Below the pieces are notes generated by a model. That model saw only the letters and a list, made by a program, of their open reading frames with translations. It searched no databases and was not told the origin of the DNA. 64,000 bases of DNA from positions 62,001 through 126,000 of the forward strand of contig NW_002476322.1 of assembly GCF_000189635.1 (NCBI RefSeq). The letters run 5' to 3'. Source of the stretch: Tetrahymena thermophila SB210. Lineage: Eukaryota; Ciliophora; Oligohymenophorea; Hymenostomatida; Tetrahymenidae. Shown piece by piece: positions 19,851 to 60,410 of the stretch (its first letter is position 1; every line of letters starts with the position of its first letter). A program made the position numbers and the translations under genes.

Positions 19851-22800
19851 TCAACTTGCTTTTTACAATAAAGCAGGCTACTTAAAGAATATATTAAGTA
19901 ATTTATTTGACAGTTTTGAATTATCTACAAATTTAGATCTAATTGTAACGATATAGCTAGTCAAAGATATCAGTGATTATATTATTAAAAAGTCTGAGGT
20001 AAATAAAAGAATGTAAGTAAAAGACCACTTCATATCTAAATTATGACTAAGTGCCTATATTTTTGGTATGAACCAGAAATAAATATCTGATCCTGAAAGT
20101 GTTGATACAAAAACTAAAGAAAGAAGCCCTGCTTTTCTAAGGCATAACCCAAATTAAGATAATACTATTTGTAATATGCCTTTACCAGCTATTGCAGCTA
20201 ATAAACCAAGAGCTGCTACTCCGTAGTTTGTCTAATTATTATAATATTTATAATTTAAAAATAAATTGAGTTTGAGTGTAAACTTACGCTTTATGAAATG
20301 TATGTCATAAAGAAAAGAATCAAATATTTTGTAAAAAGCATTGCAGATCTGAATATTCTACTCTTTTTAGGGTCATATAAAGTAATTATAGAAATTATTT
20401 CATTGCCAATCTAATTATTTTAATTAATAAATATATTTTCTTATTTTGTTTCAAATTGAATAAAATACTAGAGTGTAATAAAGCTTTTTTGGATAGTTAA
20501 TTTTATTTGTGTCTTTTTCATATGTTTAAGAGTCAGAATCATTATCTTTTATTGACTGTTACTAACTTTTATCTGAGCTCAATTATTCGTCTACTATTTA
20601 TTTAATTTTTAAATTAATATTTACACAATAAAATTAAAATTTTTTTTTTACCATTCTGGAAAGTAGGGATATCTTCATTTATTTTTGCTAAAGTAGACTA
20701 CCTAAGAGGTCTTGCTCTAATTTTGAAATCAGCAAAGTTTATTTTGTTCCCACTTATTTTATAAGGGCTTCTAGATGTTGGGGAAATGTTGACATCGTTT
20801 TGTGAATTTTAGAAAGGAAGAATTTAAAGTTAACTCTGTATATTTACATATGACAAGTTTGTTGTACTCTTTTTCGTAGGAGATTCAGCATCTAATATGT
20901 CTTTGTATCCACTTTACTTTAAACTCGTTTAATCAAAAGCAGTAGGAAGCATTGAAATCATAGAAGCACGAGTAATAGCAGTTCTTTTTCTTCTATTTGG
21001 AGATTGATTTAGATTTAATTAAGTACCTTAGAAATCTAAATCTTTTCTTTCTCTTCTGATTATATCTCGTACTTGCTTATCACTAACATGAATGCTTAGT
21101 TACTTTTAACTTGATCTGACTTATCCAAATTTTCCAAAAGATTTTCCATTTTTATAGTCTAAATATGCTCCTGTTATAGAAGAAAATATCCAAAGTCCAG
21201 CTTTAAAAATCAGTATTTTGGCAATAAGTGAATCAAATCCACTTGAACCAACATTTATACAATCACCTTATTCAGGTCCTAAGCAGCCATTTTTATTGCA
21301 GCTAAAGTGGCATTAAATACATTACTTTAAGTTTTCATCTTAAAATGTAAGAATAGGATCACAACTAACTTAGCAAGTACCTTAATAAGTATACTGATTA
21401 TCTATGCAGCTTAAACAATAATCTGTAGACTAGCATTCTTTGCATAAACCAGAACATTTAGTGCATTTCATAGAGCTTTCATCATTGAAATATGTTGAAG
21501 GACATTATTTGTAGCATTTCTTATCTAAAATGAAGTGGTGCTCTAGGCAAGACAAGCAATCATTAGAGCTAGGCCCATCACAAGTCTTGCAATCTTCATT
21601 ACATTTTTTGAATTTATCTTTATCTGTATAATACCCATCAGGGGCATCTTTTAAGCATTTACCTTCGAATAATATCAATGGACTATTACAACTAAATATG
21701 ATAAAATGTTTAAATTTTAATTTAATCAATTAAATATATATATAGATTGATTACCTTAAGCAGTTCGTGTTTCCTGAGCTGCTACATGTCTAGCATAAAG
21801 GATGACAAGCCTCACATATCTTCTTCTCCTTATTAGAGAAAAATGATTCAGGGCAGTTCTACGTACATTCGCTTTTTTAAGCATCTAAAAAATAACCATC
21901 TGCACATTATTTACACTAATTTTAAAATTTATTTAGCAAATAAAAAATTAAATTTAACATTTTACATCGTTTTTTGTAGGTCCATTGCAAGTTTAGCACT
22001 CAACAGCACATGGTTAGCACAATAAATTCTTTTTTTCTAAATATTCATTTTAATCACATTGATCTACACACTTATTATTCTTAATTGACTTCGTACATAG
22101 TTAGCACACTCTTTTTTCATCATAAGTGTGAAAAACAGGACAATTTTCAACACATTAATTCTGATACATAAAGTATTATGAATCACATTCTGTGCACTAT
22201 TAAAATTACATTTAATTTTATGTTATAAAGTATATTTATGTTTTATTTATACGTTGTTTGAATCTGGGCCATTGCATTTAGAACATTAATCGTGACACTT
22301 TAAGCATACTTGTTAACCATTTTTAATAGCTGGGTAATAATTTGTTTCACATTATTCAACACAGCTCCCTTCTTAAAGATATCCTAAAATAAAAAATGTA
22401 TAATTATTAATGATTTATTTAAAAGAATTTTAAACCAACCTGATGAACATGTTAAACATTTGAAAGATGCACTACCAAAGCAGGTAGAACATGATGGATC
22501 ACAATCTATGCATTTATTTTCAAATTTAAAAGTATTGCTTGGACATTCTTTTAAGCATTCTCCTTTATAAAGTAGTCTATCCTAAATACATTATACACAT
22601 TAATTTTCTGATTTACCAACACATTCTGCACATGTTGAAAAACAAGGCTCGCATTTTTTTGTATTTGTATCAGGATATCTACCTGATGGACATTCATTTT
22701 CATATAAACAGCTATTATTATCTGTATTTTTAAATGTTTCAGGTATGCAAGTATAGCAACCCTATTCTGTGGCATCAAAGCAAGTTAAACATGTATAAGC

Positions 22801-25800
22801 ACATTTAGTGCATTATTAAGAACCTGAATTAATTAAAAATAAATAATTATGCTAAACTTAAAATTATTTTTAATTTTATTTTAATTTAATAAAGTCTATT
22901 TACTGATATCGTTAAAAAACTTAGTTGGGCACTAGCTTACACATAAGCCTTTATGAAGGAAATATCCGCCTGAACATTAATTGCATGTTTTATCATCAGA
23001 GCATACATCACAATTTTCAATACAATCTTTACAAGTGTTTGAAGTGGAATCTCCGAATTATTTAATTGGACATTTTGAAACACAGTTATTTTTACTCTTA
23101 TCCAAATATGTACCTTCTTTACAAGAATTACACTCAAAATTAGATGGACCAAAACAAGTTTGGCATTAAATATTGCAATCATCACAAATATTTAATTTTT
23201 CATTTTTGAATGTTGAATCTGGGCAGTTTTTTTCGCATTTGCCCTCTGTCAAGAAAGTTCCTGAGTTGCAACTAGTGCATTGATCAGCTTTTTCTGTGCA
23301 TGTTTTACAATTTTTATCACAAAGTTCGCATTTATTGTTTAATTCATTTCCATACTCATTATCGTTACATTTTGAAGAGCAGGTTTTACCATCTTTTAAA
23401 AATAAAGATCCTTCACATTCTGTGCATTTATCCGATCCACTATCTGTACATTCTTTACAAGTGGTATCGCATTTCTATTTTTTTAAAAAATGTTATTTTT
23501 ATAATTTTTTAAAATATTTTTTTGCAATTTAGTTATTTTTAGTAAAAATAAAAAAATTATTTGAATATTTACAAGGCATTTGTTGTTTAAATTGCTTGGA
23601 TAATAATTTGTTGGGCATTTTGTGACACAAGTATTTTCAAGTGGATTTAAAAATGTGCCATTTGGACATTCTAAGCAATTGTTTTCATTAGGGCCATTGC
23701 ATTTTGAACATTAAATATTACACTCGTCGCATGTATTATTTGCTTTTTAAAGGATAAAATTAATAGTATTGAAGATAATTTTATAAAACAATAATAATTT
23801 ACTAGAATTTTTCCATCCTTGGTTACATTCACTTTTACATTAATTTTCTTCAAAGTATGTACTATCAGGACACCTAATTAATTATTGATAAAAATACATT
23901 GAAATTGAAATGAATATCAATTATTTAAATTTATAGAATATTATAGAGATTGATTATTTTAAACAAATAATTTCATCTGTAGAACTATTTTTAATAAACA
24001 AATATGCTTTGTAAATTAATTACTTTGCGTACTTTTTATTACTAATATTCTATAGATGATAATTTATTAATAATCTTACACAATATTTTTATTAAAATTT
24101 TACTTTAAGCAATTAGTTCTATCTGGTCCTGAACAAGTTAAACAACTTATATCACACTTTTTACAAATATTATTTAAAGTATCCTAATAAGTCCCATCTG
24201 GACAATCCTCTAAGCATTAATTTTTTGGTGTCAAATAGAGATTTCCCTTGCATGCAGTACATGAATTAGGACTATTATCTTTACAATTAAAGCAGCTTGA
24301 ATCGCATTAAATGCAATTGTAAGCATTTGGATCTTAGAAATATTAGTCAGGACAACTAGAAATACATTCGTTTTTAAATAAAATCAATTTATCTGGACAT
24401 TTTGTACATTAATTGCTTAAAGAACCAGAACATTCTAAGCAAGATGAATCACATTCAACACATTAATTATTATCCTTGTCTTCGTAGTATTTTTGCTAAC
24501 ACTTTTCCACACATTTTTTTGAAACTGGGTCAAAGAGCAATTCTCCCTTACAATTAGTACATTAATCTGGGTTTGGACCAAAACATGTTTCGCAACTAGT
24601 ATTGCAAGGATCACATTTTCCATTTGATAAATTGGCATAATATCCTTTTGGGCATATTGCTAAGCAAGTATTATGATGAAGATATAAATTTGAATTACAC
24701 TTAGTGCAATTAGTACTAGAACCATCACATTCTTTGCATTTCATTTTGTCGCATGGATCACAATTATTAGTACTCAAATTAGAAAATTTTCCTGGTGAAC
24801 AAATTTTTACACATTTATTGTCATCTAAGTAAAGATCATTGCTGCATTTAGTGCACTGGTTACTGTTTGGGCCAGAGCATTCTTAACATGTAATTTCACA
24901 TTTCTTTTTATTTATTCATTTTAATTTAATTTCAAAGTGATATTAAACTTAGCGAAAAATCTATGATTTAAATTAAAGTTTTTAATTACGTCACAGGTTT
25001 AAGTTGACTAATTTCCATAGAATTTTGAAGGACAAGGGCTAACACATTTTTTGCTATTTAAATCAAGAAATAAAGGAGAATTACAAGACTTACAATTACT
25101 CTTGCTTACATTGTCACATGTTTTGCAATTAGGGTCACACAATTCACATTATCTAGTCGCTATTTGTCAAAAAAATAAAATAAACAAAAATAATTTGTTT
25201 GATAACGATTACAATTATTAGTCCATTTTCCATCAGGGCAGCTATTTTTACAAACTCCGTCAGAATCTAAAAACATCTTAGGATTACATCTAATTTAAAA
25301 AAAAAATGTTTTAATTCTTTCCAATAATCATTTATTTTATTACTTTGTGCAATTGTTTTTCGCTTTAATGCAAGCAACACAATTAGAATCACAACTTTCA
25401 CATGTATTATTTGCTTAATTTTTGAACTAGCCATCTGGACAGGAATCAAGACATTTATTTCCAGGATTTAAATATAAATCTCCGCTGCATTTTGTACACT
25501 GATCTGAGTTTGGTCCGCTGCAGTTGAAACAAGTAGAATGGCATTATTTACAAGTTTATGAAGTTTTATCAGGATAATATTAATCTGGGCACTAAGAAAG
25601 ACATTGTTTTTCATATAAAAATCTAATTTTACCACCAAAAAAAATTTTATTTTATTAAAATTAAAAAAAACTATACATACCTATTACTGGCTTTGCTGCA
25701 AGAATTGCAATCTTTTTCAGTTCCTGCACTACAATCGTAGCAAGTTTCGTGACATGGAGTACAATTGTTTCCATTTTTATACTAAGTTATCTTGCATTTA

Positions 25801-28212
25801 TCTCCACAAGTATTATCATCAGGCTAGTAGTACTTATTTGTATTACAAGACAAACAATCTGAATTAGTTTTGCCTTTGCAAGTCAAACAGTTAATATTGC
25901 AAGGCTAACACTTATTTCCATCTTTTTTCAATGAAAAATCATTAAATATAATTAATTTATTACTAATTTTACTATATTCTCCATATGTTCCATCTGGACA
26001 CTATTCTAAGCATTCATTACCACTTAAAAATCTTGAACCTTCACAAGAAGTACATTTTTTATCATCATCTAATATTTAATTTTATTTTAGTCTATTCTCC
26101 CTTGTAAAAAATTCAATAAAACTTACTTGGATTTGTACATGTTTTACAGTTTTAATGACACTTATCGCATGTAAGAGTTGTTTCATTGGGAGCATATCCA
26201 TCAGGACATTTTTCTGAGCAAGATTTTTGATACAAGTAAGAATTTGGTTTGCATTTTAAACATGAAGTTGCTAATTAATAAGAAAAACTTTAAATTAAAA
26301 GATATGTATATAATACATTTGAAATACCTGAGCTATCGCATGTTAAACATTTTCCTTCACATTTGTCACAAGTATTCGTTTTACCATTAGCCCAAAATCC
26401 TAGATCAGTAGGACAAGAAATTTCACAATTATATTCGTAGAGGTAAGTCCCTTGAGGACATTTGGTACATCCTTTTTCATTACATTCCAAACAATTATCT
26501 TAACACTATTTTAAAATAAGAAGAATAATAAATAAATAACCATCAATGACCAATAAAATCTGATAATAATTATTACGTAATTAACTAAAATAAATAGCTC
26601 TCTAATTCCAAAAGAAGCTTCAAATGGAGATTTGGAAGAAGCTAAATTGCTTTTTATAGTAATAGTAAGAGAAGAACTAATATGTGTAGTATTATAATCA
26701 TAGACTCCTTTTGCTTCAGGATTAGTATTACCACAAATATTACCTACTTTTGTGGCTGAGTCTTTTGTAATATTAGAAATAATTTTATTATTGTCTAAAG
26801 CAACCTAAAGGAATTCATTTTTATCCCAATTATCTATCATTATGTATTTAAAACCTATTCTAATCGACCAATGAGGTTTGCTTTTATTTGAACATGAAAT
26901 TAATTCAACTTTATAAATAAATTAATTCATTAAAAATACAATTTGGGTAATTCTCTTCTAATTTCAGAACCTGAGCCTGCAACATTCCATCCCCCAATAA
27001 ACCTTTCTCCAGAACAACTGCTAAAAGTTGCGCCACCATTTTTAAAATTTAAAAGTCTTAAGCCCTAACCTTAGATTTCACTATCTCCAAAATTAGAAGA
27101 ATAAAGTCCTTTAAAAACATATCCTCCATCTTTTTAAATAACAATTAATTAAAAAATTAAAATATTTTTTTCAAAAATTACAAGTTAATCCTATAATTTT
27201 ATCTTCACAATATGTTCCTTTATCTATTGAGAAAGAAGGACATTATGAAAGACACTCACCGCTAATTAATTTATTTGGGTAGTTGCATTTAGTACAAGAA
27301 AAATTTTCACAATTTCCGCAATTATTTAAACATTTAGACTCTTCGCATATTCTAGTGATAGGATTTCCTACAAATCCATAGGGGCAATTCTAAATACACT
27401 AAAAATTATATGCAAATAGCTAATCAGGGCAAGTACATACTCCATCAACTTCAACTGCTTTAGGTATACAAGCTGTGCATTAATTCTATTTATAAAAATA
27501 AAAAATTTTAAGTTTATAGATAATAATTAATCTCATATTTACTGAAGAAGGACCAAAACAACTTTAACAACTACTATAACATGTGTCAACGTAAACAGAA
27601 ACATGTTTAAAAGCATAACCTTCGTAATCCGTATCTGTATTCGTTCCAGTAAATTTAGAATCAATTTTTATTGTTAGCTCTTTATTATTGTGAGTATAAT
27701 TCCTTTGATATGGATAAATAGCATCATAAAAAGGTCTACCCCAAAAACCAAAAGCTTTAGAATTAGAACAAATTAAATAGCCATCTTAATCATTTTTTGT
27801 ATATCTATCCATAGTATTATCGTCTATACTAATTCCAGCATAATCTCCTTCATCAGCATCTACACTTCCATACAGCATCAAATCTAATCTTACTAAAGCG
27901 CTCCAATGAGGAGGTAAATCTTTGTAAGTCTTTTTGTTTAGGGTGACATCTTAAGAAAAAACTCCAAAGATCTAGCCAGTATATTCTACTATATTTTTTT
28001 GCTCACAAGTTCTAATAATATTTTTAGACCATCCAATCACTTCTTTTGAAGTAATTTAAGGTTTTTAAAATTCTTCTGAAATGAGCAATTCCTCTAAATG
28101 TTAAATAAAAAACTAAGACAGAATTTACAAAAAATATTTTACTTGAAAGAATGACTTTAAAAAAATAGACTATCAACAAATAAATACTGTAAAATTATAA
28201 TTTTGTCATCAT
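19851..28212 (-). CDS. Gene F: giant furin-like Cys-rich membrane protein (multi-exon)
   Basis: The start at 28212 ([20 protein letters not shown]) gives a signal peptide. Exon 1 ends 28143 and intron 28094-28142 is phase 1 inside [10 protein letters not shown]. Module 1 (about 28050-27560) contains [19 protein letters not shown] and [17 protein letters not shown], ending [21 protein letters not shown] short Cys-rich segment follows, then module 2 (about 27110-26580: [50 protein letters not shown]). From about 26500 to 21230 there is a long furin-like array of CxxC...CxxCxGP units. Next come a hydrophobic helix ([16 protein letters not shown], near 21200), a basic cytoplasmic-looking linker ([20 protein letters not shown]), an acidic Ser-rich piece, and several TM helices ([62 protein letters not shown]). 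It ends PALLQKAS, TGA 19851. Many short introns; ligand unknown. Confidence 0.85.
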
Positions 28213-29235
28213 TTTATTTAGTTTATTAATTTTTTTTTATTATTATTTATTATACTTTATATGATTATGCTTTTTACACATAATCAATCTTTGATTACCA
28301 AAAATAGTTACTAGAACTACCAAGTAACAGTCATATAAATATAATCTATAATAATTAAATTAAAATCACTAATTTTATATAGATAATAAAAAAGTCATCA
28401 AACTGGTTAAATCTTAATTAAATTATTTTTTTAGCGGACATTAACTAAACAAATTTATTTTCTTTGCATAAAAAATTTTGTAGTTAAGTTCTAGGAATTT
28501 TTAAATTAAATGTTTATGTGTAAATATAATAATTCGTAATAAAACAAACTAATATTTTTAATGAAAGAATATTATCATAAATTTTCTAATTTCTTTAGAA
28601 GATTTACTATTTTTCAATTATTCATTTGAATAAAATATTGATAAGGATAAAAAATTTTCTTAATTTAAGTGTAATAAAATTCTTTAGGCATAATTAAAGT
28701 CATTATCAATTTATCAAAAATAATTTATTTTAGGATATTGTTTGTTTTTCTAATTGAATTTTATAAAAGAAAGGTTATTTAAAATAAAAAAGCAAATAAT
28801 AGTAAAAATATTTACTTTATATTGTAATTAAATGATTCAAAATATTATTTAATTTTTTAATTTATAAGAATTTAAAATTTTTTATTGTTTTAAAAAAAAA
28901 AAAATCTATTTTCTATAACTTATTTTATTTTTTATTCAAAATTTCTATATTTTTTACTTTAACTTAAAATAAAAACTAGTGCTTATTTTATATATTTATG
29001 AATTTATAATTATTTTTTACAAAAATATATATTTTAAATTAAAACAGAAAATAAAGTAAAAAAATAACAAAAAAATTTTTTTTGATGTTATCTTGAAAAA
29101 CATATTATAATGATTAAAATTTCTTCGATATTTAAATTACTCAGGTTACAATTTTCATTTATCTATTTTTTTATTTCGTTGTATGTAGCTAACAACTCAC
29201 TCTTCAATTTCTAAATAAAAATATCAATTATATTT
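28213..29235. other. Intergenic region between F and G
   Basis: About 1 kb, extremely AT-rich with poly-A/T tracts (for example near 28895). No coding support. It should hold the promoter of F and the terminator of G; no consensus recognised. Confidence 0.55.
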
Positions 29236-32200
29236 TCAATTTTTATTTTACAGCAAAGTAGGCTATTAAAACAAAAAATTTAACAAAACATTTTTAAGCC
29301 TGGAGTTATCCACGAAATTAGATCTAACAGTAACAATATAACTGGCAAAAGAAATCAGAGATTATACTATTAGAAAGTCAGAGGTAAATAGAAGAATATA
29401 AGTAAAAGACCACTATAAGTCAAAATTTTTGCTCATTTTTTATACTTTAGGTACAAACCAGAAACCAATGTCAGTTCCTGTAATTATCATAACAAAAACT
29501 AATGAAAGAAGCCCTGCTTTTCTAAGGCACAATCCAATTTATGATAAAATATGTTAAGTTATTCCTTTAAAAGCAATAGCAGTTAATAATCCAGCAAATG
29601 CTACACCATAATTTGTCTATATGTTAATATTTTGATTTTTAAGTTAATTAATATGTAAAATAAATAAGCCTACTTTTGAAGAAACATAAGTCATAAAGAA
29701 AAGAACCAAGTATTTCAGATATATCATTGAAGATCTGAATAGTCTACTTCTTTATGGGTCATATAAGGCTATAAGAGAGATGATTTCATTACCAATCTAT
29801 TTAATAAAATTAATATTATATTTTAGCTTATTTAAAAAAAAATTACTAAAGTGTAATAAAGTTTTCTTGGGTAGCTAAAAATATTTGTATTTTTCTCATT
29901 ACCCTAAGATACCTAATCAATATCTTTCGATGACTCATTCTCACACTTTTTATCTGAGCTAATTTATTCTTCCACTTTATTAAAGAGTAAATTTAATATA
30001 TTTTTTTTTCTTTAAATAAATTTATTACTATTTTAGAAAGTAGGAATAGCATCACTAATTTTGGGTAAAGTAGGTTATTTAATGATTGGTCTAGGAGTAA
30101 TTTTAAAATCTGTAATATTATTTTCATTACTGATACCATTTTTATCTAGTGTTCTACAAGTTGGTGAAATATTTATATCGTTAGATGATTGCTAATAGGG
30201 TAGCATTTAGAGTTAACTCTGTATATTTGCAGAAGAGTAGTTTGTGATACTTTTTTTCGAAGGAGATTCAGCTTCTAAATATTCCCCGCAAGCACTCTAT
30301 TTAATATCTGTTTGTTCAAGCGCGCTAGGAAGCATTGAAATCATAGAAGTACGAACTTTCAAAGTTCTTTTTTTCCTGTTAGAAGATTCATTTACATTCA
30401 ATTATGTACCTTAAAAATTTATATCTTTTTTCTCTCTTCTAATTATATCCCTTACTTGCTAATCACTAACATGAATACTTAACTATTTTTTGCTTGGTCT
30501 AACTTATCCAAATTTACCAATAGATTTTGAATTTTTATAGTCTAAAATTATTCCAACTATCGAGCTAACTATCCAAAGAACTGTTTTAAGTGTTAAAATT
30601 TTTACAATCAATAAATCAAATCCACTTTCTCCTACATTAATACAGTCCCCTTATTCAGGTCCTAAACATCCGTTAGTATTGCAGCTTGAATGGCATAAGA
30701 CACATTATTTTTAATTTTCATCTTGAAATGTGAGTATAGGGTCACAACTAGCTACACAAGTTCCTTGATGAGCATACTAATTACTGTGACAACTTAAGCA
30801 ATAATCTTAACTTTAGCATTCCTTACACACGCCTCTACATTTTGTACATTGCATTAAGCTCTCATTATTGAAGTATGTTGGAGGACACTGTTTGTAACAT
30901 TTTTTCTCTAAAATAAAGAAGTGTTCTGGGCATGATAAACAATGACTAGAACTAGGTCCATCACAAGTCTTACAATCTTCTTTGCATTTTTTAAATTCTT
31001 CTCTGTCTTTATAATATCCATTAGGAGCATCTTTTAAACATTTTCCTTCAAATAGCACCAAAGGGTTATTGCAGCTATTTCATATTCAAAATATTTATAA
31101 AATTAATTTATTTTATTCATATTTATTTATTTATCACCTCAAACAATTTGAATCTCCTTAGTTGCTGCATGTATCACATTTTGAATCACATTTTTCGCAT
31201 AGATTCTTTTATTTGTTAGGAAAATATTTTTCTGGGCAATTTTATGTGCACTGGTTTTTTTAAACATCTAAAAAGTACCCAGCTGAGCATAATTTACACT
31301 TTTATGAAACATGTTTAAATATATTTAGATTAAATGTAACATTTTACTTCGTTTGTAGTAGGGCCATAACACGTTTGACACTCTGTTGCACACGGTTAAC
31401 ATATTAATGTCTTTTTATCTAAATAATCATTTTAACCACACTCATCTACACATTTGTTGTTTTTTATTGATTTTGTACACAATTAACACTCTCTTTTATC
31501 ATCATAAATGTGAAAAACAGGGCAGTTTTCTACGCATTTATTTTAGTACATGAACAAATTAGAAGAACATTCAGTACACTAATAATTTCATATATTATTT
31601 AAATCAAAAACATATAAATAAATGTTAAAAAGTTAAAGATATATCACATTATTTGAATCAGGACCATTACATTTAGAGCATTATTCATTACACATAAGAC
31701 ACATTTGTTGTCCATTTTTAATAGCTGGATAGTAATTTTATAAGCAATGGTCAACACAACTACCTTCTTATAGAAGTCCTATGATTTTGTTAATAGTAAG
31801 TTTTATTAATTATCATTTAAAAAAATAAAAACCTGAAGAGCATGTTAAGCATTTTTATTAAGAGCTACCATAGCATGTAGAGCATGATGAATGACAATCA
31901 ATACACATATCATCAAATTTAAAAGTATTGCTAGGACATTCTTTTAAGCACTCACCTTTATAAAACAATCTATCTTGAATGCATTATCTACATTGATTTT
32001 CATCCTTTCCAGTACATTCAGTACATGTTGAGAAACATGATTCACATTTTTGAGTATTTAAATCTGGATATTTACCTGATGGACATTCAGTCTCATATAA
32101 GCAGCTATTATTATCAGAGTTTTTAAATGTTCCAGATATACATGTCAAGCATCCATTGATTGTAGAATCAAAACAAGTTTAGCAATTCTAAGAACAAGAA

Positions 32201-35200
32201 ATACATTATTAAGTTTCTATTTTTTAAAATATTTTAGTTAAAAGTTTTTATTTTGTTTAAATATTTAAGAAATTTAATAGAAAATATCAAATATTATTCA
32301 AAATAATTAAATTACTTTAATCACTAAAATATTTAGTTGGACATTAGTCTAAGCATTATCCATAAAAAAGGAAGAATCCACTTAAACACTTTGAGCATGT
32401 TTTATGATCAGAGCACACATCACAATTTTCAATACATTCTAAACATGTATTTGATGAAGAATCTCCAAAGTATTTACTCGGGCATTAAGAAACGCAAGTA
32501 TTTTTACTTTTATCTAAATAAGTACCTTCTTTACAAGAATTACAGTCAAAAATAGATGAACCAGAGCAAGTAAGACATAAATTATTGCATTTATCACAAA
32601 TATTGAGCTTATCGTTTTTAAATGTAGAGTCTGGACAATCTAACTAGCATTTACCATCAATTAAGAAAGTACCAGAATTACATGCAGTGCATTAATCAGC
32701 TTTATCTTTGCAAGTTTTGCATTTTTTGTCACAAAGTTCACATTTATTATTTAAAATGTTACCATATTCATTATCATTACAATCAGGTGAGCAATATTTA
32801 CCATCTTTCAAAAATAGAATATCTTCACATTCTGAGCATTTATCTGATCCATTATCAGTACAGTTTTTACAGGTTTTATCACATTTCTATTATTAAATTA
32901 ATAATTGTTTTAAAAATAATTTATTTTATTACTTTTTTTATTAATTTTTTTTTTGTGAAAAATATTAAATTTTAATATTTACATCGCATTTATTATTTGA
33001 AGTGTTCGCATAATAATTTGAGGGGCATTCTGTTCCACACGTATTATCCAAAGAATTATAAAATGTCCCAGTAGGGCATTCCAAACAATTATTTTGATTA
33101 GGGCCATCACATTTCTGGCATTATTTATTGCAAGCGTCGCAAATATTACTACCTATTAATTTTTTAAATGAAATAAATGTTAACTTTTTTATAAAAATAA
33201 TATAACTCACTTGCATTTTTCCATCCATTCGTGCATTCTTTTTTACATATATTATCTTCTAAGTATGTATCTTTTGGACACCTTTTTTTCAAATAAATTA
33301 TTAAAATTTTAATTGGGATTTATATTTTATATGGTATATTTATTTTGCTCGTAGCTTTAAAAAATACTGAGTTAATTTATCTTTAAAATTTTTTATAATT
33401 AAAAAAGTTTTTAAAATTATTTTAATTTCATAAAATTATTGCGTTTTTACTTTGTACAGTTATTTTTATCAGGTCCAGAACAAGTTAAGCAGCTTGAATC
33501 ACATTTTTTACAAATATTTTCTTGCTCATCCTTATAAGTTCCATCTGGACAATCTTCTAAGCATTAATTTGAAGGTGTCAAAAATAGATTTCCTTTACAA
33601 GCATTACAAGAGTTTGGGCTACTATCACTACAGTTATAGCAGCTTGGATCGCATTTAATGCAATTATAAGCGTTTGGATCTTTAAAATATTAGTCAGGAC
33701 AATTAGAGATACATTCATTTTTGAATAAAATAAATTTATCTGGACAGCTTGTGCACTAATTCTTTAGTGAACCTGAACATTCTAAGCATGATTTGTGACA
33801 ATCCATACATTAATTATTGTCTTTGTTTGCATAGTATTTTTATTAGCAAATTCCCACACATTATTATGAAACAGGATCAAAAAATAAATCTCCACTACAA
33901 TTTGTGCATTAATTATCATTTGGACCAAAGCATGTTTCGCAACTGGTATTACAAGGATCACATTTACCATTTGATGAATTTGCATAATATCCTTTAGGAC
34001 AAGTGACTAAACAAGTGTTATTACTAAGATATAAGTTAATATCACATTTCGTACAATTCGTACTAGAATCAATACATTCTTTGCACAAAGTTTAATCACA
34101 CATATCACAATTATTCGTAATTTAATTTGAAAACTTTCCTGGCTAGCAATTAGTAACACATTTATTATTATCTAAGAATAGGTTACCACTACATTTAGTG
34201 CATTAATTACTATTTTCTCCAGTACATTCTTAGCAAGTGTTTTCACATTTCTTAATCATAAAAAAAAAATTTTAATAATGAAAGTTCACTTTACTTTTTA
34301 AAAATAAAATATTATATTATTCAAGATCAATTTTACATCACATGATAAGCTTGATTTATTTCCAAAATATTTAGAAGGGCAAGGATCAACACATTTTTTG
34401 CTATTTTTATCTAGAAACAAAGGAGAACTACAAGATGTACAATTACTCTTACTAGCAGCATCACAAGTTTTACAATTAGGATCACATAATTCACATATTT
34501 ATTTTGCTTTTTATAAAAAAATATGTATAAAAGTAAGTAAGATTTTTTGTATTTCAAGTTACCTTAATTTGTCCATTTTCCTTCAGGGCAGCTACTTTTA
34601 CAAATTCCATCTGTGTCTAAAAATTAATTAGTTTTGCATCTAAGATGTATAGATAAAAATATATAATTGATTAAAAAAATATTTTATTTAATTAATTAAT
34701 TACGAAGTGCAAATATTCTTAGCTGTGCTGCAAGTAACACAATTAGAATCACATGATTCGCATTTATTATTTGTTGAATTTTTGAATTAACCGTTTGGAC
34801 AACTATTCAGACACTTATTTCCAGCATTTAAGTATAAATCTCCACTGCATTAAGTGCATTGATTTTAGCCTGGGCCAGTGCAGTTGAAGCAAGTAGAATC
34901 ACATTTTTTGCATTTTTATGAATCTTTATCTGGGTAATATTGATCTGGACATAAAGAAAGGCATTGATTAGCAAAAAAATATCTATTTTTATATCCAAAA
35001 TTTATTAAAATCTAACAAATATTTATGTAAAATATTCACCTATTACTGACTGAGCTACAATCTTTACAATCATTTGGAGTTCCTCCGCTGCATGTTTTAC
35101 AAGTTTAATCACACGGAGTGCAATTATTACCATTAATGTATTAATTTGTCTTGCACTTATCTCCACAAGTATTATCATCAGGTTAGTACAATGCATTTTT

Positions 35201-37820
35201 CTTACAAGACAAACAGTCTGCATTTGTTTTTCCTTTACAAGTTAAGCAGTTAACATTGCAAGGAGCACAATAATTTCCATCTTTTTTAACAATAATTTAA
35301 GATTAATATTAATTTCTAATAAATTTTACTATATTCTCCATATAGCCCATCTGGGCATAATTCTAAACATTAAGTGCCACTTAAAAATCTTTAGCCTTAG
35401 CATGAATCGCATTATGTATCATCATCTATTTATTATTTTTAAATCTAAATACTATAAATAGACAATTTGATTAATTTACTAGGAGATTTGCAAGTTTTGC
35501 AGTTTTAATGGCATTTATCACATGTTAATGTAGCCTAGTTTGGAGCGTATCCATTTGGACATGTTTTTGAGCATGATTTGTTATATAAATAAGTTCCAGG
35601 TTTGCATTTTAAGCATAATGTTGCTAAAATAAGGAATTAAAAATCAAAAAAACTTATATACTAAATTAAAGTAAAAAATACCTGATAAATCACATGTTAA
35701 ACAATTATCTTAGCAAATATCACAAGTATTTGTTTTAAAATTAGCCCAAAATCCAAGATCAGTAGGACAAGAAGTTTAACAATTATATTCGTAGAGATAA
35801 GTTCCTTGAGAGCATTTGGTACATCCTTTTTAGTTGCATTCTAGGCAATTATCTGAGCACTTTGATTGAATTAGTTAAATTAATTTTATATACTAAATTT
35901 CCTCTAAATTAAAACCGTTAAAACCAAAAAATAAATAATATTAAAATAATTTTTATCTTAAATTTTTTATAGAATTTTCCAAATTTGAATGTAAATATTG
36001 CATTAAATATAGTATATATATTTTTTAACTATCTTATTCTAAGATTTTGATTAATTTTTAAAAAGATTTTATCTTATGAAATATAAATCATTCAAAATTA
36101 TATTCATTCAGATTTTATTATTTAAATTTTAAAGTTTGTTGTTTACAATTTAAAAATAATAAATAAATAAATAAATAAAAAATAATTTACATAATTGACT
36201 AAAATAAATAGTTCTCTAATTCCAAAAGATGCTTCGAAAGGAGATTTTTCAGAATTTAAGTTGGTTTTTATTGAAATAATAAGAGAAGAGCTTATATGAG
36301 TACTATTATAATCATATACACCTATAGCTTCAGGATAAGTATTACCACAAATATTACCTTATGAGGTAGCTGATTCTTTATTAATATTAGATATAATGTT
36401 TTTGTTATCTAAAACAACTTAAAGGTTTTCATTTTTACCCCAATTATCTATCATTATATATTTAAAGCCTATTCTTATTGATGAATGAGGTTTGCTTTTA
36501 TTAAAATAAAAAATTAACTGGTAAAAAAAAATACATTTTTTATTACAAATTATTTAGCTCTCTTCTAATTTCAGAGCCTGAGCCTGCAATATTCCATCCA
36601 CCAATATATCTTTCTCCTGAACAGCTACTAAAAGTTGCTCCACCATTTTTAAAATTAAGAAGTTTTAAACCTTAACCTTGTATTTCACTATCACCAAAAT
36701 TAGATGAGTAAACTCCTTTAAAAACATATCCTCCATCTTTAATTAATCAGTTTTAAATTAAAATAATGAATTAAATTTAAAAAAATAAAACATACAGTTT
36801 AACCCTGATAATTTATCTTCGCAGTATGTACCTTTGTCTATAGAGTAAGAAGGGCATTAAGAAACGCATTCTCCATTAATTAATTTATTTGGATAATTGC
36901 ATTGTATGCATTCTTAATTTACACAATTTCCACAATTTTTTAAGCATTTAGATTATTCGCATATTTTTGTAACAGGATTTCCTGCAAAACCATAAGGACA
37001 ATCTGAAATACATTCAAATTTGTATGCAAATAATTAACCTGTACAAGTACAAATACCATTTACTTAAACTGCTTTATCTATACAAACTGTGCATTAATTC
37101 TATTTTTTATTTTAAAAATTCAACTTTTTTATAGATAGATATGAGTTTTATTTACAGCAGAAGGACCATTACAGCTTTAGCAACTATCATAACAAGTATC
37201 AATATAAACAGAAACATGTTTAAAAGCATAACCTTCATAGTCCTTTGGGGAATTATCTCCAGTAAATTTAGATTCTATTTAGATTGTTAATGAGCTATTA
37301 GTATGAGTAACATTCTTTTGATATGGGTAGATTGCATCGTTGAAAAGCTAATTAAAAAAACCTCTAGAATCAGAGCAAATTTTATAGCCATCTTTATCAT
37401 TTTTTGTATAACTATCCTAAGGATATGAGTCAATAATAATTGCAGCATAATCTCCTTCTTTTTGATCTACACTTCCATATAGCATCAAATCTAATCTAAC
37501 TAATGCGCTCCAGTGAGGTGGTAATTCTTAATAGGTTTTAAAGTTTTTAGTGATATCTTATGAAAAGACACCAAAAACCTATCCAGTGTATTCAACGATA
37601 TTTTATTGCTCACAAGTTCTAATGATGTTTTTTGACCATCCAACAACATCCGCAGGAATAATTTAAGGTTTTTAAAATTCTTCAGAAATGAGCAACTCTT
37701 CTGTTAACAAAATAAAATATTTAGATAAAGTTGATGAGAGCTAATTTTACTTGGGAGTAGAATTTTTAATAAATGAGCTAAGAATAAATACAAAATTTTA
37801 AATTGACCCTTTATGATCAT
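29236..37820 (-). CDS. Gene G: giant furin-like Cys-rich membrane protein, paralogue of F and H
   Basis: Same plan as F. It starts at 37820 with MIIKGQFKILYLFLAHLLKI. A phase-1 intron beginning 23 codons in leads into KELLISEEF at about 37690. The PHWS modules lie near 37100-37680 and 36200-36740; the second has [17 protein letters not shown], so PHWS reads PHSS here. The Cys-rich array runs from about 35880 to 30620. A clear exon at 31061-30813 reads [18 protein letters not shown], then [15 protein letters not shown] and PPTYFNNESLMQCTKC. The linker region ends PTLPKISDAIPTFQN. The membrane exons read [36 protein letters not shown] and [18 protein letters not shown]. It ends PTLLQNKN at TGA 29236-29238. 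The frames look intact in every exon inspected. Surface receptor or adhesin is an inference only. Confidence 0.84.
36160..36178. repeat. AAAT microsatellite within an intron of gene G
   Basis: About five copies of a TAAA/AAAT unit inside the AT-rich intron that precedes the second PHWS module of gene G. Confidence 0.7.
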
Positions 37821-38616: not shown

Positions 38617-41600
38617 TCAATTTTTATTTTGTAACAAAGCAGGTTGCTAAAAGAAAAAGTTTAGTAAAATGTTTGAAAGCTTTGAGTTATTAACAAAGTT
38701 AGATCTAATTGTTACAATATAGCTAATAAAAGAAATGAAAGATTAGATTATTAAAAAGTCTGATGTAAATAGAAGGATGTAAGTGAAAGACCACTTCATA
38801 TCTAAATTTTGACTCATTTACTGGATTTTGGGCAAGAACCAGAAATATATATCGGATCCTGAAAGAATCATTACAAAAGCTAAAGAAAGTAAACCTGCTT
38901 TTCTAAGGCACAACCCAACTTAAGATAATGCATTTTATAAGATTCCTTTACCTGCAATTACAGCTAAAAGTCCAAGAGCTGCTACTCCATAATTTTTCTT
39001 TTATTTTAATAATCTCGTCGTTTAAAAAATAATTGAAATTAATAAATTTACATTTTAAGAGATATAGGTCATAAAGAAAAGAGCCAAATACTTTAGATAA
39101 AGCATTGCAGACCTAAACAATCTGCTTCTTTTAGGGTCATATATAGTTATTATAGAAAGCATTTCATTGCCAATCTTATAATTTTTATATTAAACTTTAG
39201 TAAATATTTTTCTTAAAAATTAGATTACCATTGTGAAATAAAGTTTTCTTGGATAACTAATTGTTTTTATTTCTTGTTGATTTGTTTAAATAATTGAATC
39301 AATATCCTTTGCAGATTATTACTAAAAACGATTATCTGAACTCACTTAATCTTCAACTATATTTTTATTTTTAAATTTAATATTTACAAATTATTAATAT
39401 TAATTTACTGTTTTAGAATGTAGGCAATCCTTGGCTTATTTTGGCTAGAGTTGATTTTTTGACAGGTCTTGCTTTGGCTTTGAAATCATTAAAATTTAAT
39501 TAGTTTTCAGTGCTACTTATGTGTGGGCTTCTTGAAGTTGGAGAATGATTTATTTCATTCTAATAACTTTAGATAGGTAATATTTTAAGCTAGCTCTATA
39601 TATTTGCAGAAGAGAAGTTTAAAGAACTTTTTTTTGTAGGAGATTCAGCTTCTTAATAGTCTCCAAATGCAGTTTTATTAGCAGTAGTTTATTCAGATGG
39701 TAATATTTAGATCATTGACGCACGGGATAAAATATTTCTTTTTCTCCTATTTGGAGATGTATTAACATTCAATTACGTGCCTTAGAAATCCATATCCTTT
39801 CTTTCTCTCTGAATAATTTCTTTTACCTGATTATCACTAACATGAATACTGAGCTATTTATCTCTTGGTCTGACTTATCCAAATTTACCAAAAGATTATG
39901 AATTTTTATAGTCTAAAATTACGCCTAAGCCTGAAGAAAATACCCAGAGTCCAGTTTTAAATATCAAAATCTTAACTATAAGTAAATCAAATCCACTTGC
40001 TCCAACATTAACACAGTCACCTTTATCAGGTCCTAAGCACCCGTTGGAATTGCAACTAGAATGACACTAGATACATTGCTTTTATTTTTCATCCTAAAAT
40101 GTAAGAATTGGGTCACAACTAGCTAAGCAACTACCCTTAAAAGCAAATTAATTATTTTGACAACTTAAGCAATAATCTTAACTCTAGCATTCTTTGCATT
40201 AACCTGTACATTTAGAACATTCCATTTTGCTTTCATTTTTAAAATAAGTTGAAGGACATTGATTGAAGCATTTTTTATCTAAAATAAAAATATCTTAAGG
40301 ACAAGATAAACAATCGCTTGAACTAGGTCCATCACAAGTCTTGCAAGATTCATGACATTTTTTAAATTCATCTTTATCTTTATAATACCCTGGAGGAGCA
40401 TCTTTTAAGCATTTACCTTCCAATAATACCAAAGGACTATTGCAGCTATTAATAATAATATTTAAATAAAGCTTAATTTAATAAAAAAATATATTATTAC
40501 CTCAAACAGCTTGAATCACCTGAGTTACTGCATGTATTACACTTAGGATCACAGACCTCACAAAGATTTTTTTATTTATTAGGGAAGTACTTATCTGGGC
40601 AATTTTATGAACATTTGTTTTTTTAAGCATCTAAAAAGTTTCCATCTGAACATTTTTTACACTTATTGATAAAAAATTTAAATAATTTTTAAATAAAACG
40701 CAATATTTTACTTCGTCTGTAGTAGGTCCATAACAAGTTTGGCACTATGCTGCACAAGGTTAGCACAATAAGGTTGCTTAGTCTAAATATTCATTTTAAG
40801 CACACTCCTCTACACATTTGTTATTCTTAATTGCCTTTGTGCATTTTTAGCAAACTCTTTAAACATCATAAATGTGTTAAACAGGGCAATTTTCTACACA
40901 TTAGTTTTAGTTCATGAATGAATTTGATGGACACTCAGTACACTATTCAAGAATAAAAAATTTTTCTTAATCATTATATTTATTTAATAATATTTTATAC
41001 ATTATTTGAATCTGGACCATTACATTTAGAGCACTTTTCATAGCATTATAGACAGACTTACTACCCATTTTTTGTAGCTGGATAATAATTTTAAATGCAT
41101 TAGTCAACACAACTTCCTTCTTAAAGAAACCCTAGAATAATTATTAATTCAACTGAGTTAAATTTTATTTAAAAAAATAATAATCACCTGTAGGGCATGT
41201 TAAACATTAGAATTGCGAGCTACCAGAACATGTAGAGCAAGACTTGTGACAGTCAATACATTAATTATCAAATATATAAGTATTACTTGGACACTATTTC
41301 AAACACTCCCCCTTATAAAATAATTTATCTTAAATGCATTTTTTGCATTAATTTTCATCCTTTCCTGTGCATTCAGAACATGTTGAAAAACAAGATTCAC
41401 ATTTCTGAGTATTTAAATCTGGATATTTACCAGATGGACATTCGTTATCATGTAAGCAACTACTATTATCTTAATTTTTAAATGTCCCTGAAACGCATGT
41501 TAAACATCCATTACTTGTAGCATCAAAGCAAGTTTAACAATTCTAAGAGCAAGGAGAGCATTATTAATTGTCTATTTTTAAATTATTTATTTTTTTTTAA

Positions 41601-44600
41601 ATTAATTTTTATTTTATTAAAGTTTGTAAAAAAAAATTAATTTGAAAAATTTAGAAATAAATGAAATTACTTAAATCGTTAAAGTATTTAGTTGGGCATT
41701 AAGCTACGCATGAACCATTATGCAAGAAGAATCCAATTGAACATTTTTAACATATTTTATCATCAGAGCATAAATCGCAATTTTCAACACAATTCAAACA
41801 TGTGTTTGTAGCAGAATCTCCAAAATATTTACTTGGACATTAAGGAACACAAGTATTTTTAGTTTTATCCAAAAAAGTATCTACTCCACAAGAGTTACAT
41901 TCAGAATTAGATGGGCCAGAGCAAGTTTTACATGAATTGTGGCAGCTTTCACAAATATTTGATTTATCATTTTTAAATGTAGAATCAGGGCAATTTGTTT
42001 CACATTTATTATCATTTAAATAAGTTCCTGAATTACAGCCAGTACACTGATCAGCAATATCTTTGCATGTTTTGCATTTAGAATCACAAGGCTCACATAT
42101 ATTATTTGCTTAGTTACCATACTCATTATCATTACAATTAGGTGAACAATATTTACCATCTTTTAAAAATAAAGTGCCTTAGCATTCTGTGCATTTATCC
42201 GATCCGCTATTGGAGCAATTTTTACAAGAAGAATCGCATTACTATTAATTTATTAAAGTTTAAAATAAAGCCTATTTAATATATGTCTAATGTGATAGTG
42301 AATTTATAATAGCTATTAATCATAAAATAAATAATTTAGTAAATTTTACAGTGCATTTGTTGTTAGATGTGTTAGGATAATAATTTTGAGGGCAATTAGT
42401 ACCACAAGTATTATCTAAAGTATTAAGATATGTTCCGCTAGGACATTCTTTACAATTATTTTCATCAGGACCATTGCATTTAGAGCATTTACTGTTGCAT
42501 GCATCACAGGTGTTTGTATCTTTTTATTTTTATAATAAATGATATTTTTTTAATAATAATTTTAAATTTACTTGAATTTTTCCATCCATTTTTACAATCT
42601 GATTAACATTAATTATCTTCTAAATATGTTAAACCTCCACACCTAAAATAATTTAAATATAATTTTAAATATTAAAAAAGTAAGCTCTCTATTTCAATAC
42701 TGTAAAATATTAATTATAATCTGTTTGATAACCTTAATCGTTAAAAATTTAAAACAATAATTAATTAAACTTAAAAATTTAAATAAATATAAATTTATTG
42801 AAAAAAAATAAAGATTTTACAGTATTTTATTTAAAAAAATTTTCAGAAATATTCTCTATTTCATAATATTGAATAAACTATTTACCTTAAACAGTTAGTT
42901 TTTTCTGGTCCAGAGCAAGTTAAGCAACTTGAATCACATTTTTTACAAATATTATTATCCTTATATGTTCCATCTGGACAATCTTATAGACATTGCTTTG
43001 AAGGTGTCAAATAAAGATCTCCTTTACAAAGAGTACAAGAATTTGGGGTACTGTCACTACAGTTATAGCAACTTGAATCACATTTGATGCAATTATAAGC
43101 ATTTGGATCTTTAAAGTAATTGTCAGGGCAATTGGATATACATTGATTATTAAAAAGGATGATTTAATCTGGACATTTTGTGCACTAATTCTTAAGAGAA
43201 CCTGTACATTCTAGGCATGACTTGTCACATTACATGCATTAATTATTTTCATTGTTAGCATAATATTATTATTAACAATTTTTCACACATTTTTATGAAA
43301 TTGGATCAAAAAATAAATCTCCTTTGCAATTAGTACATTAATCTGAACCTGGGCCGAAGCAAGTTTCACAACTAGGATTACAAGAATCGCATTTTCCATT
43401 TTATAAATTTGCATAATATCCTTTAGGACAAATTGCTTAGCATATGTTATTATTGTTAAGATATAAATTTGTATTACATTTTGTACAGTTTGTACTAGAA
43501 CCAGTACATTCTTTGCATTGAGTTTAATCACACAGATCACAATTATTTGTTTTTTAATTAGAAAATTTTCCTGGTTAGCAGGTAGCAACACATGTATTAA
43601 CATCTAAGTATAAAGTGCCACTACATTAAGTGCACTGATTACTATTTTATCCAGTACATTCTTAGCAGGTAGTATCACATTTCTAAATATTTTTAAAGTA
43701 GAACAAATTATAAATAAGTTAAAAATTTCTAAATTTGTAAAAAAATAAATATAAAAAATAAACTAATACCTAGCACTGTAAACTTGATTAATTTCCAAAA
43801 TATTAAGAAGGACAAGAATTAACACATATGTTTTTATCTTTATCTAAAAACAATGGAGAGTTACAAGAAGTGCATTTACTCTTGCTAGCTGCATCACATG
43901 CTTTACAATTAGGATCACATAACTCACATTTTTTAGTTGCTTTAGAAAAAATAAATATTTACTAAAAAATATTTGATAAATTTTATTTATTTATTTATTA
44001 CTATTATTTGTCCACTTTCCTGAAGGACATGCACCTTTACAAACTCCATCTGTATCTAAAAATTGATTTGCATTACATCTAAAAATAAAACAAAAAAAAT
44101 TTTAAATAGAAAATCTAATTAATTAATTTATTTTAGTACGATAAGCAATTATTTTTCGCTGTGGCACAAGTTTTACAATTAGAATCACAAGTTTCACATT
44201 TGTTATTTGTTGAATTTTAGAATTGGCCATCAGGGCAAGTTTTCAGACAAAGGTTACCAGGATTTAAATATAAATCTCCACTGCATTATGTGCATTAATT
44301 TTAATTTGGTCCATTACAATTAAAACAAGAAGAATTACATTATTTACAAACCTAGGCTGATTTATCTGATGAGTCTGGGTAATACTGGTCTGGACACTAA
44401 GTAAGACATTGATTTGAAAATAAATATCTATTTTACAATAAAATTAAAGTTATTTTAAGAATTTTTTATAAAAAAAACTCACCCATTATTGCAAGATTTA
44501 CAATCTTTTGCTGTTCCGCTACTGCAAGTAAAGCATGTTTTATCACACGGAGTGCAATTTGTTCCATTAATATATTAATTACTTTTGCAGCTAGTTCCGC

Positions 44601-46993
44601 AAGTATTATTATCTGGTTAATATAGCTTATTTATGTTACAAGATAAACAATCTGCATTTGTTGGACCCTTACAGGTTAAGCAGTTAGCATTACAAGGTGT
44701 ACATTTATTTCCATCTTTTAAAATAATATATTAATCAAACAATTAATTGTAAAAAATTTTACTAAATTCTCCATATTATCCATTAGGGCATATTTCTACG
44801 CATTAAGATCCACTCAAAAATCTTGAACCTTAGCATTGTGTACATTTGCTATCATCACCTAATAAATTTTATGTCAAATTATTTTTTATCGGGTATCATA
44901 TAAATTACTTGGATTTGAGCAGGTTTTACAGTTTTAATGACATTTATCGCAAGTTAGTGTAGATTAATTTGGAGCGTATCCATCTGGGCACGTGTTTGAA
45001 CAGGATTTGTTATACAAGTATGTTCCAGGTTTGCATTTTAAACATGAAGTTGCTGTTGTTTATAAATCAAAGCAACTAATTAATTAATAAATATATTATA
45101 TATAAATATTTAAATTACCTGCCGTGTCGCATGTTAAGCAATTTCCTTAGCAAGTATCGCAAGTATTTGTCTTATCATTAGGCCAATATCCTAGATCAGT
45201 TAGGCAAGAAGTACCACAATTATATTAATAAAGATAAGTTCCTTGAGGACATTTTGTGCAACCATTTTAGTTGCATTCAAGGCAATTATCTTAGCACTGT
45301 TAATCAACCATAAATAGTAAAATTAATTTCACATTAAATTAAATAAACTAAAAACTTACATAATTGACTAAAATAAACAACTCTCTAATTCCAAACGAGG
45401 CTTCAAAAGGAGATTTTCCAGAATCTAAGTTGGTTTTAATAGAAATGATAAGAGAAGAACTTATATGAGTGCTATTATAGTCATAGACTCCTGTTGCTTC
45501 GGTATTTTTATTACCACATATATTACCTACCTAATTAGATTAAGCTTTTGATATGGTAGAAATAACTTTATTATTATCTAAAACCACTTAAATATTTTCA
45601 CTACTAGCCCAATTATCTATCATTATATATTTAAAACCTATTCTTATTGACCAATGAGGTTTACTAATGTTAATAAAAAAGAAATTTATCAATTAAATTA
45701 ATTAAATATTTTAAAAATACAAGTTAGCAATCTCTCTTCTAATCTCAGACCCTGAGCCTGCAACATTCCATCCACCTACAAATCTTTCTCCTGAGCAGCT
45801 ACTAAAAGTTGCACCACCATTTTTAAAATTTACAAGTTTCAAACCTTAACCTTAAATTTCGCTATCTCCAAAGTTAGAAGAATAAAGACCTTTAAAAGCA
45901 TATCCTCCATCTTTGAAAATAATTAATATAATTAAAGCATTAAAAATATATGAAAAACAATAATTTACAATTTAACCCTGTCATTTTATCTTCACAATAG
46001 GTTACTTTATCTGTAGAATAAGAAGGACATGCAGAAACACATTCTCCATTTATTAATTTATAAGGAGAGTTGCATTTGGTACATTACTAATTGACACAAT
46101 TGCTACAGTTATTTAAGCATTTAGACTATTCACATATTTTGGTTACTACATTTCCTACATAACCAAGAGGGCAAGCAGCAACACATTCAAAATTGTAAGC
46201 AAAGAGTTAACCTGGGCAGGTACATACACCATTAACTTAAACTGCTTTATCTATACAAGCAGTACATTAATTCTATTGATAAATAAAAATAATTAATTAT
46301 TTATTTATGAGAATTGAGTTTTAATTACAGAAGTGGGACCATTACAAGTTTAGCAACTCTCATAACATGTATCAACATAAACTGAAACATGTTTGAATGC
46401 ATAGCCTTCATAATCACGAGCTGTATTCTTTCCAGTAAATTGAGAATCTATTTTGAGCACTAAAAAACTACTAGCGTGAGTAACATTTTTTTAATATGGA
46501 TAAATAGCATCATTATATAGTGTACCCCAAAAGTTTGACGAATCTGAACAAATTCTATATCCATCTACATCATTTTTTGTATATCTATCCATAGTATTTG
46601 AGTCGATGCTAATTCCAGCAAAATCTCCTTCATCAGCATCTACACTTCCATAAAGCATCAAGTCTAATCTTACTAGCGCACTCCAATGTGGAGGTAATTT
46701 AGTGTAGTTTTTAAAGTTTTTAGTAACATCTTAAGAAAAAACCCCAAAGATTTATCCAGTGTACTCAACAATATTTTATTGCTCACAAGTTCTAATAATG
46801 TTTTTTGACCATCCAACAACATCCGCAGAAGTAATTTAAGGTTTTTAAAATTCTTCAGAAATGAGTAACTCCTCTATTTATTAAAATAAACGCTAAGGGA
46901 TAAAAGGTGAAAAGATATTTTACTTGAAAGTAGAATTTTTATTTAATAAATTAGAAATAAAAATAAGATATTCAATTAAAATTTGACAGTCAT
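38617..46993 (-). CDS. Gene H: giant furin-like Cys-rich membrane protein, paralogue of F and G
   Basis: It starts at 46993 with MTVKFQLNILFLFLIYQIKI (signal peptide). A short intron inside the SKE codon is in the same position as in F and G. Module 1 is near 46870-46320 ([33 protein letters not shown]). Module 2 is near 45930-45360 ([37 protein letters not shown]). The furin-like array runs from about 45290 to 39990, with many exons separated by 50-200 nt introns. A clear long piece at about 43600-43280 carries tandem CxxC..CxGP units. The C-terminal membrane region reads [36 protein letters not shown] and [17 protein letters not shown], and ends PALLQNKN at TGA 38617-38619. It looks closest to F in its membrane exons, with YFW retained after SGSDI. 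Function unknown. Confidence 0.84.
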
Positions 46994-56311: not shown

Positions 56312-56674
56312 GAGATATGTCTTTTAATATTTTTATGTATTTTTATAAATAGAAATAAAAGTTTGTGCATAAATGTGTATATAAATAAATTTTCTAGAAA
56401 AAAAATCAAGCATTTATTTAGATTTCTTTTTTACATTAATAAACAAACAAATTTCAAAGATTAAAATTAAGAAAAGATAAAACCATTTATTTCTTAAAAG
56501 ATTTTATCTAAAGAACTACAAAGTGGTTAAATGAGGTTATAATTGAATATAAGCCATATAAATACATCTAAAAATACTTATTTATTTTCATACTTGATAA
56601 TTAATTTAAAAAGAGCATTCATTCATTCACTGATAATGTTAAGTTAAAAATTTATACTAAGGATTTTTTAGCAC
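56312..56674. other. Convergent 3' spacer between K and L
   Basis: About 360 bases, AT-rich, holding the 3' ends of K (plus) and L (minus). No gene and no classical terminator hairpin seen. Confidence 0.6.
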
Positions 56675-60295: not shown

Positions 60296-60410
60296 TATTT
60301 AAAAATATAAATTTTAAGAAAAATTAAATTCTGTCTGTTTTGCTTGAGAATCTTTTATTTAAATAAATTTAGCAAAAAAAAGAAATAAATCAAACAATTT
60401 TTTACTTTAC

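Follow-up and report, generated by a model that had tools for sequence, protein, structure and literature searches.

The stretch of DNA analysed here, a 64,000-nucleotide window of Tetrahymena thermophila SB210 (C209:62001-126000 in a 101-Mb genome, to which C60, C185 and the other contig labels used below also belong), carries three very large tandem genes, designated F, G and H, which are a real, well-formed trio from a sizeable ciliate receptor-like family. Each encodes, in order, a signal peptide, a first head module, a furin-like spacer of ~100 amino acids (aa), a second head module, a long furin-like or growth-factor-receptor (GFR) array, a transmembrane helix (TM1), a basic linker and the helices TM2-5. 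Profile comparison shows the TM2-5 tail of this family, referred to as the PHWS family after a motif in its heads, to be homologous to the tail of ciliate proteins that contain a REJ domain, the two forming one putative membrane module. The balance of evidence tips towards F, G and H being multi-pass cell-surface contact receptors or adhesins whose N terminus faces outward, the class proposed in a preliminary description of this DNA and the one that we also judge the most plausible.

Gene models and protein architecture

In this genome, the exon for the telomerase RNA-binding domain translates into a sequence identical, over 102 of 102 aligned residues, to the T. thermophila telomerase reverse transcriptase chain in the PDB (2r4g). 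Gene models of F, G and H were built under the ciliate code (table 6), assuming GT-AG introns, with final boundaries set by hand by aligning F, G and H; automatic codon-plus-splice runs differed in exon number (15-21; 25-37; 21-27 for F). In the resulting models, each of the three is a single, intact, minus-strand gene of 24 exons, all 69 introns are GT..AG, a single TGA terminates each reading frame, and gaps of about 1.0 and 0.8 kb separate the neighbours. These models return exactly the outer bounds that had been proposed (19851-46993) and bear out the description of the trio as giant tandem paralogues. At 18 of the 24 exon positions the three genes have exons of identical length, the other six varying by one to three codons, and the copies therefore arose via whole-gene duplication. 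TM1, TM2 and TM3-5 are encoded on three separate exons.

The order of parts given above, which the preliminary description had also outlined, was found in all three proteins. Each contains 24 CxxCxxxCxxC units and 85 CxxC motifs, with 245, 248 and 245 cysteines in F, G and H, respectively, and 23-26 N-glycosylation sequons. The whole-ectodomain Pfam scan covered F among the three copies, at residues 1-1900, and placed GF_recep_IV (2.4e-46; 157.2 bits against a cut-off of 29.5), Furin-like_2 (4.7e-43; 146 against 28) and Furin-like (2.1e-11; 44.4 against 26.8) over their cut-offs, in addition to VSP (2e-15). F thus resembles growth-factor-receptor and furin-like proteins, but differs from growth-factor receptors in its far longer array, its two extra heads and the lack of a kinase match in the scanned part. 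The linker between TM1 and TM2 of F is basic and S/T-rich (K+R 34 and D+E 22 in 214 aa). All three proteins begin with a hydrophobic N terminus, and downstream of this signal peptide TM1 and the TM3-5 stretch passed a hydropathy threshold of a mean of 1.3 over 19 residues in F, G and H.

The short motifs singled out at first are less uniform than the architecture. FGFWG in module 1 holds for F and not elsewhere (H reads NFWG), PHWS is present in both modules except in G, where module 2 reads PHSS, and the tail motif YGVAALGLL is exact in F and H and replaced by YGVAFAGLL in G. The second tail motif, [13 protein letters not shown], is present in all three.

A membrane tail shared with REJ-domain proteins

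An alignment of PHWS-family tails (A5; 18 of the 24 tails found, with L009 and L014 trimmed at doubtful ends) contains ten invariant columns in the TM2-5 region (Y, R, R, K, P, D, W, S, Y, D). That this tail matches no recognised domain holds with respect to Pfam, as no family exceeded its cut-off and the scan of the 18 rows returned scattered names only (best SURF4, 0.00073, in 1 of 18 members), but it does not hold with respect to relatives, which exist among ciliate REJ-type tails. A PHWS-family tail query matched gene L074 on contig C148 (E 0.004), which encodes Cys-rich repeats, a REJ domain (Pfam 4.2e-33), TM1, a linker and TM2-5, with a GPS-like C..W..C..CxC stretch before TM1 that is visible by eye and gave no match to Pfam GPS. 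The L074 tail used as a query yielded 111 genome matches, F, G and H not being among these, and 20 of them were aligned (A6). A REJ match lies no more than 3 kb upstream of 12 of these 20 tails, and all 20 encode TM2-5 in one continuous frame; the F, G and H tails are split by introns. Genome-wide, the REJ domain has 74 matches, all over the cut-off. The REJ matches and the REJ-type tails often cluster on the same contig.

Comparison of the two tail profiles (A5 against A6, hhalign) gave Prob 97 and E 1.1e-10 over 141 columns, while the controls, comprising 2 reversed and 20 block-shuffled profiles, gave E-values of 0.014 to 0.91, and a further control with two multi-TM proteins encoded in the window gave 0.59. 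The match persisted when PHWS-family tails were compared with the 12 REJ-linked rows only (1.3e-9) or with the other eight (3.8e-9), and when 15 paralogue tails were compared with the REJ-linked rows (4.3e-10). Given these matches and their controls, the PHWS-family and REJ-type tails are taken as one membrane module. This tie appears to be new, as far as could be seen.

Two copies of a head module outside the named families

The two head modules are homologous, and the view that they are copies of one module is supported by an hhalign comparison of module 1 with module 2 (E 1.1e-15 over 129 columns, against 0.19 for the reversed control) in which the head-2 profile comprised the F, G and H rows only. 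Broader alignments were also made, of 30 of the 32 head-1 matches (A1; the 2 without an assigned locus were excluded) and of 18 head-2 rows chosen from F, G, H and other head loci (A8). The latter has the consensus core PHWSVxIGYTLYKIDxW, VDG, NICG, NFTHxSx[17 protein letters not shown]. No Pfam family exceeded its cut-off for head 1 (none in a single scan; best Fer4_12, 0.013, over 30 rows) or for head 2 (18 rows; best InlJ_IG, 0.0011, in 1 of 18 members). Sub-cut-off Pfam names were scattered over heads and tails, in 1 or 2 members each, and were judged to be chance. Profile searches of the PDB found no relative for A1, and for A8 eight chains, all at 0.052 or worse, likewise judged chance. 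Since no Pfam family passed its cut-off and the PDB offered no convincing chain, the initial claim that the head matches no named domain stands, and the head module is, as judged by these profile searches, a domain outside the catalogued families.

A genome-wide family

A tblastn search with head 1 hit 32 genomic places (E up to 0.1), the head-2 query gave 99 matches, and tails were located with three queries. The tally took in 38 tail places, all 32 head-1 rows and 52 of the 99 head-2 rows, the remaining 47 falling within loci counted before; excluded from the tail count were second-exon or duplicate matches, a partial C416 match, a weak C91 match and the REJ tail on C148. This yielded 48 merged head loci and 38 tail places. 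As head matches were merged within 1.7 kb, a few of the 48 loci, those on C64 and C368 for instance, may be fragments of a single gene. A same-strand family tail lies downstream within 12 kb of 31 of the 48 head loci, at distances of 2.0-7.6 kb, and a head lies upstream of 31 of the 38 tails. For the remaining 17 head loci, no family tail lies close enough; head-2-like modules of this kind were noted on C114, C199, C368, C212 and C327, and the head module may accordingly occur in other architectures.

The largest cluster, with 12 head loci, is on contig C60. C209 itself carries, besides F, G and H, two more head loci on the minus strand (five in all) and a single, more distant one on the plus strand. 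Same-strand tails at C209:41351-41857 and C209:54631-54969, beyond the window, together with head-2 matches at C209:49260 and 57393, mean that the minus-strand cluster has at least five members. The order of head 1, GFR spacer, head 2, GFR array, TM1 and linker is repeated in genes on C265, C60 and C185, the prediction for one of the two C185 genes being fragmentary. In the tree built from the 30 head-1 rows, F, G and H form a group (92/79) with C17:1929 as its neighbour (100/98, starred); stars mark 6 of the 27 inner branches.

Old copies under purifying selection

The three proteins are about equidistant, with 72-74% aa identity. Synonymous divergence (dS) is 1.05 for F-G, 1.04 for F-H and 0.91 for G-H, nonsynonymous divergence (dN) is 0.166, 0.172 and 0.155 for the same pairs, and dN/dS is 0.16, 0.16 and 0.17. 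The lowest dN is in head 2 (0.095-0.099), and the highest dN/dS is in the part comprising TM1 and the linker (0.24-0.30). Near-equidistance combined with such values shows F, G and H to be the product of an old duplication, constrained by purifying selection, and not of a fresh or diversifying expansion. The suggestion that the trio is under local expansion fails if a recent burst was meant, since dS is about 1 and the family is spread over 48 loci genome-wide with its largest cluster on another contig, C60.

Proposed function and alternative explanations

For F, G and H as contact receptors or adhesins, we infer location, topology, ligand and signalling as follows. The proteins would sit in the plasma or ciliary membrane with the N terminus outside, and the two homologous heads at that end would bind a ligand on another cell, on prey or in the matrix. 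The disulphide-rich array, as its Cys pattern suggests, would be a stalk keeping the heads far from the membrane. The base formed by TM1, the linker and TM2-5, common to ciliate REJ-domain proteins, would anchor the protein, and the basic S/T-rich linker, possibly phosphorylatable, would relay binding to the inside of the cell, perhaps through a partner channel. The genome has six PKD_channel matches, all over the cut-off, so that such a partner is available; an interaction with F, G or H is a proposal only.

In animal polycystin-1, a big ectodomain is followed by TM1, a cytosolic region and TM2-5. The overall order in F, G and H is alike, and the REJ domain is found in their ciliate relatives, L074 resembling F, G and H in its homologous TM2-5 tail, in the same order of TM1 and linker and in Cys-rich repeats on the N-terminal side. 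L074 differs in having a REJ domain and a GPS-like Cys region before TM1, where F, G and H have PHWS heads and a GFR array. From this REJ company and the order of parts, the tail module may correspond to the N-terminal five helices of animal polycystin-1. It is conceivable, if doubtful, that one interchangeable polycystin-1-type platform of TM1, linker and TM2-5 lies beneath REJ, PHWS-GFR and, by extension, MTA, MTB and MRC1 ectodomains. If true, Tetrahymena sex recognition would be a branch of an ancient cilium-linked polycystin-1 family, of which F, G and H would be old, constrained members. Because PHWS-GFR and REJ-type proteins have a tail in common, a connection of cell recognition in ciliates to the polycystin-1 family can now be put to the test. 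In the part of the open-licence PMC literature that was covered, we recognised no paper on Tetrahymena REJ proteins or on the PHWS family.

Several results weigh against the receptor reading or its polycystin-1 extension. TM2 falls below the hydropathy threshold in all three genes and is counted as a helix because its position is conserved. An AlphaFold model of head 1 (three window rows) is mostly beta and of low confidence (mean pLDDT 48.7), leaving the "beta-sandwich" first suggested for this module a guess, and a Foldseek search with it, run to E 10, gave 270 matches, of which the best had E 0.37 and none fell below 0.001, so that neither head was assigned a fold by the AlphaFold model of head 1 and Foldseek. 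CUB-containing chains ranked first in this search of a poor model and were not used. The model of the H tail (five window rows; pLDDT 43.4) was too poor for use. The F, G and H tails alone match the REJ-linked rows weakly (E 0.0012, Prob 19.5), and the REJ-tail link therefore rests on the paralogues. Searched against the PDB, the A5 profile found no chain at E up to 10 and the A6 profile found serine incorporator 3 only (0.38-0.41); as no polycystin chain is among these matches, no solved animal polycystin-1 was matched. Within F, Pfam gave no REJ match in residues 1-1900 at E up to 0.1, no GPS match, and no PLAT, with only a sub-threshold DNA_primase_S from TM1 to the end. Finally, strong constraint on old copies does not look like the pattern of fast-evolving self/non-self recognition genes.

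Three other explanations were weighed. F, G and H could be prey-, particle- or environment-sensing receptors within the expanded GFR class, one of the leading domain classes in species-specific Tetrahymena genes (PMC6564038). The PHWS-GFR family is indeed large and clustered, at 48 merged head loci, and a quotation supports the idea ([quoted passage not shown]), but the strong constraint on F, G and H (dN/dS 0.16-0.17) speaks against it, and we consider it unlikely.

A dedicated role in mating-type recognition, as MRC1-like subunits or relatives of MTA and MTB, is improbable, despite a broad likeness. MTA, MTB and MRC1 of the T. thermophila recognition complex are described as large proteins with a GFR domain and five predicted TM helices (PMC10901506, PMC3608545), the same general make-up as F, G and H, with which they were compared by description only; the available portions of these two papers name no relatives outside ciliates for their tails. 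However, MTA and MTB form a divergent, head-to-head pair with a furin-like stretch of ~80 aa and with the GFR stretch and five TM helices in one terminal exon (PMC3608545), whereas F, G and H are same-strand tandem genes with two PHWS heads, a 24-unit array and TM helices split over three exons. The 48 merged head loci are also far above the need of one gene pair. A divergent tail pair was sought among the tail matches, and only PHWS-family genes on C185 surfaced; the minus/plus tail pair there was accordingly rejected as the MTA/MTB locus.

A chiefly structural role for F, G and H in the cell coat, as variable surface antigens or glycocalyx, is very unlikely. Although their Cys-rich repeats resemble those of protozoan surface antigens and Pfam VSP exceeds its cut-off in F, Tetrahymena Ser antigens are linked to glycosylphosphatidylinositol (GPI; PMC4136848). 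Where Ser and i-antigens would have a C-terminal GPI signal, F, G and H continue through TM1 and a linker of ~200 aa into further TM helices, and head 2 is their most conserved part, with the tail kept as well.

Coordinates and neighbouring genes

Table 1. Positions of the F, G and H genes and their parts within the window
Feature	Positions	Strand	Remarks
Gene F	19851-28212	-	24 exons, 2263 aa; spliced model
Gene G	29236-37820	-	24 exons, 2264 aa; spliced model
Gene H	38617-46993	-	24 exons, 2260 aa; spliced model, GT-AG introns, one TGA
F signal-peptide exon	28143-28212	-	70 nt
F head module 1 (PHWS), residues ~24-196	27576-28093	-	Single exon; 30-row alignment A1
F head module 2 (PHWS), residues ~301-477	26494-27206	-	Intron-split; alignment A8, hhalign to module 1
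F furin-like / growth-factor-receptor array	21241-26493	-	Includes introns; Pfam GF_recep_IV, Furin-like_2, Furin-like
F TM1	21163-21240	-	Hydropathy
F basic S/T-rich linker, TM1-TM2	20469-21162	-	One intron inside; predicted cytosolic side
F TM2 exon	20288-20410	-	123 nt, likewise 123 nt in G and H; below hydropathy threshold
F last exon, TM3-TM5 (YGVAALGLL ... [13 protein letters not shown])	19851-20231	-	Alignment A5, REJ-type tail match
G signal-peptide exon	37751-37820	-	70 nt
G exon with head module 1	37156-37700	-	Spliced model
G head module 2 exons (PHSS variant)	36191-36736	-	Spliced model
G TM2-5 exons	29236-29796	-	Spliced model
H signal-peptide exon	46924-46993	-	70 nt
H exon with head module 1	46329-46873	-	Spliced model
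H head module 2 exons	45360-45910	-	Spliced model
H TM2-5 exons	38617-39174	-	Spliced model

Near F, G and H, three more tandem paralogues lie on the minus strand at 1-2494 (running off the edge), 7725-11918 and 12618-16754, with models of 831 aa (edge-cut), ~1350 aa and ~1300 aa. Their ectodomain is long, and inspection of the two complete models suggests several TM helices at the C-terminal end; the 856-aa exon that was scanned gave no Pfam match. MRC2 of the mating complex, described as a pectin-lyase fold with eight TM helices (PMC10901506), is a possible lead for these genes.

The other minus-strand genes of the window include an acyl carrier protein at 55906-57157, probably mitochondrial (PDB matches up to 4.2e-15; its 3' gene model is doubtful), and a TPR protein at 52761-54179 (TPR_12, 7.7e-19). 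By eye, the gene at 60208-63960 probably encodes a cyclic-nucleotide-binding-domain protein with low-complexity linkers, and the translation of 48507-51740 has the look of a synaptojanin-type phosphoinositide phosphatase, with a Sac-like part followed by a 5-phosphatase-like part.

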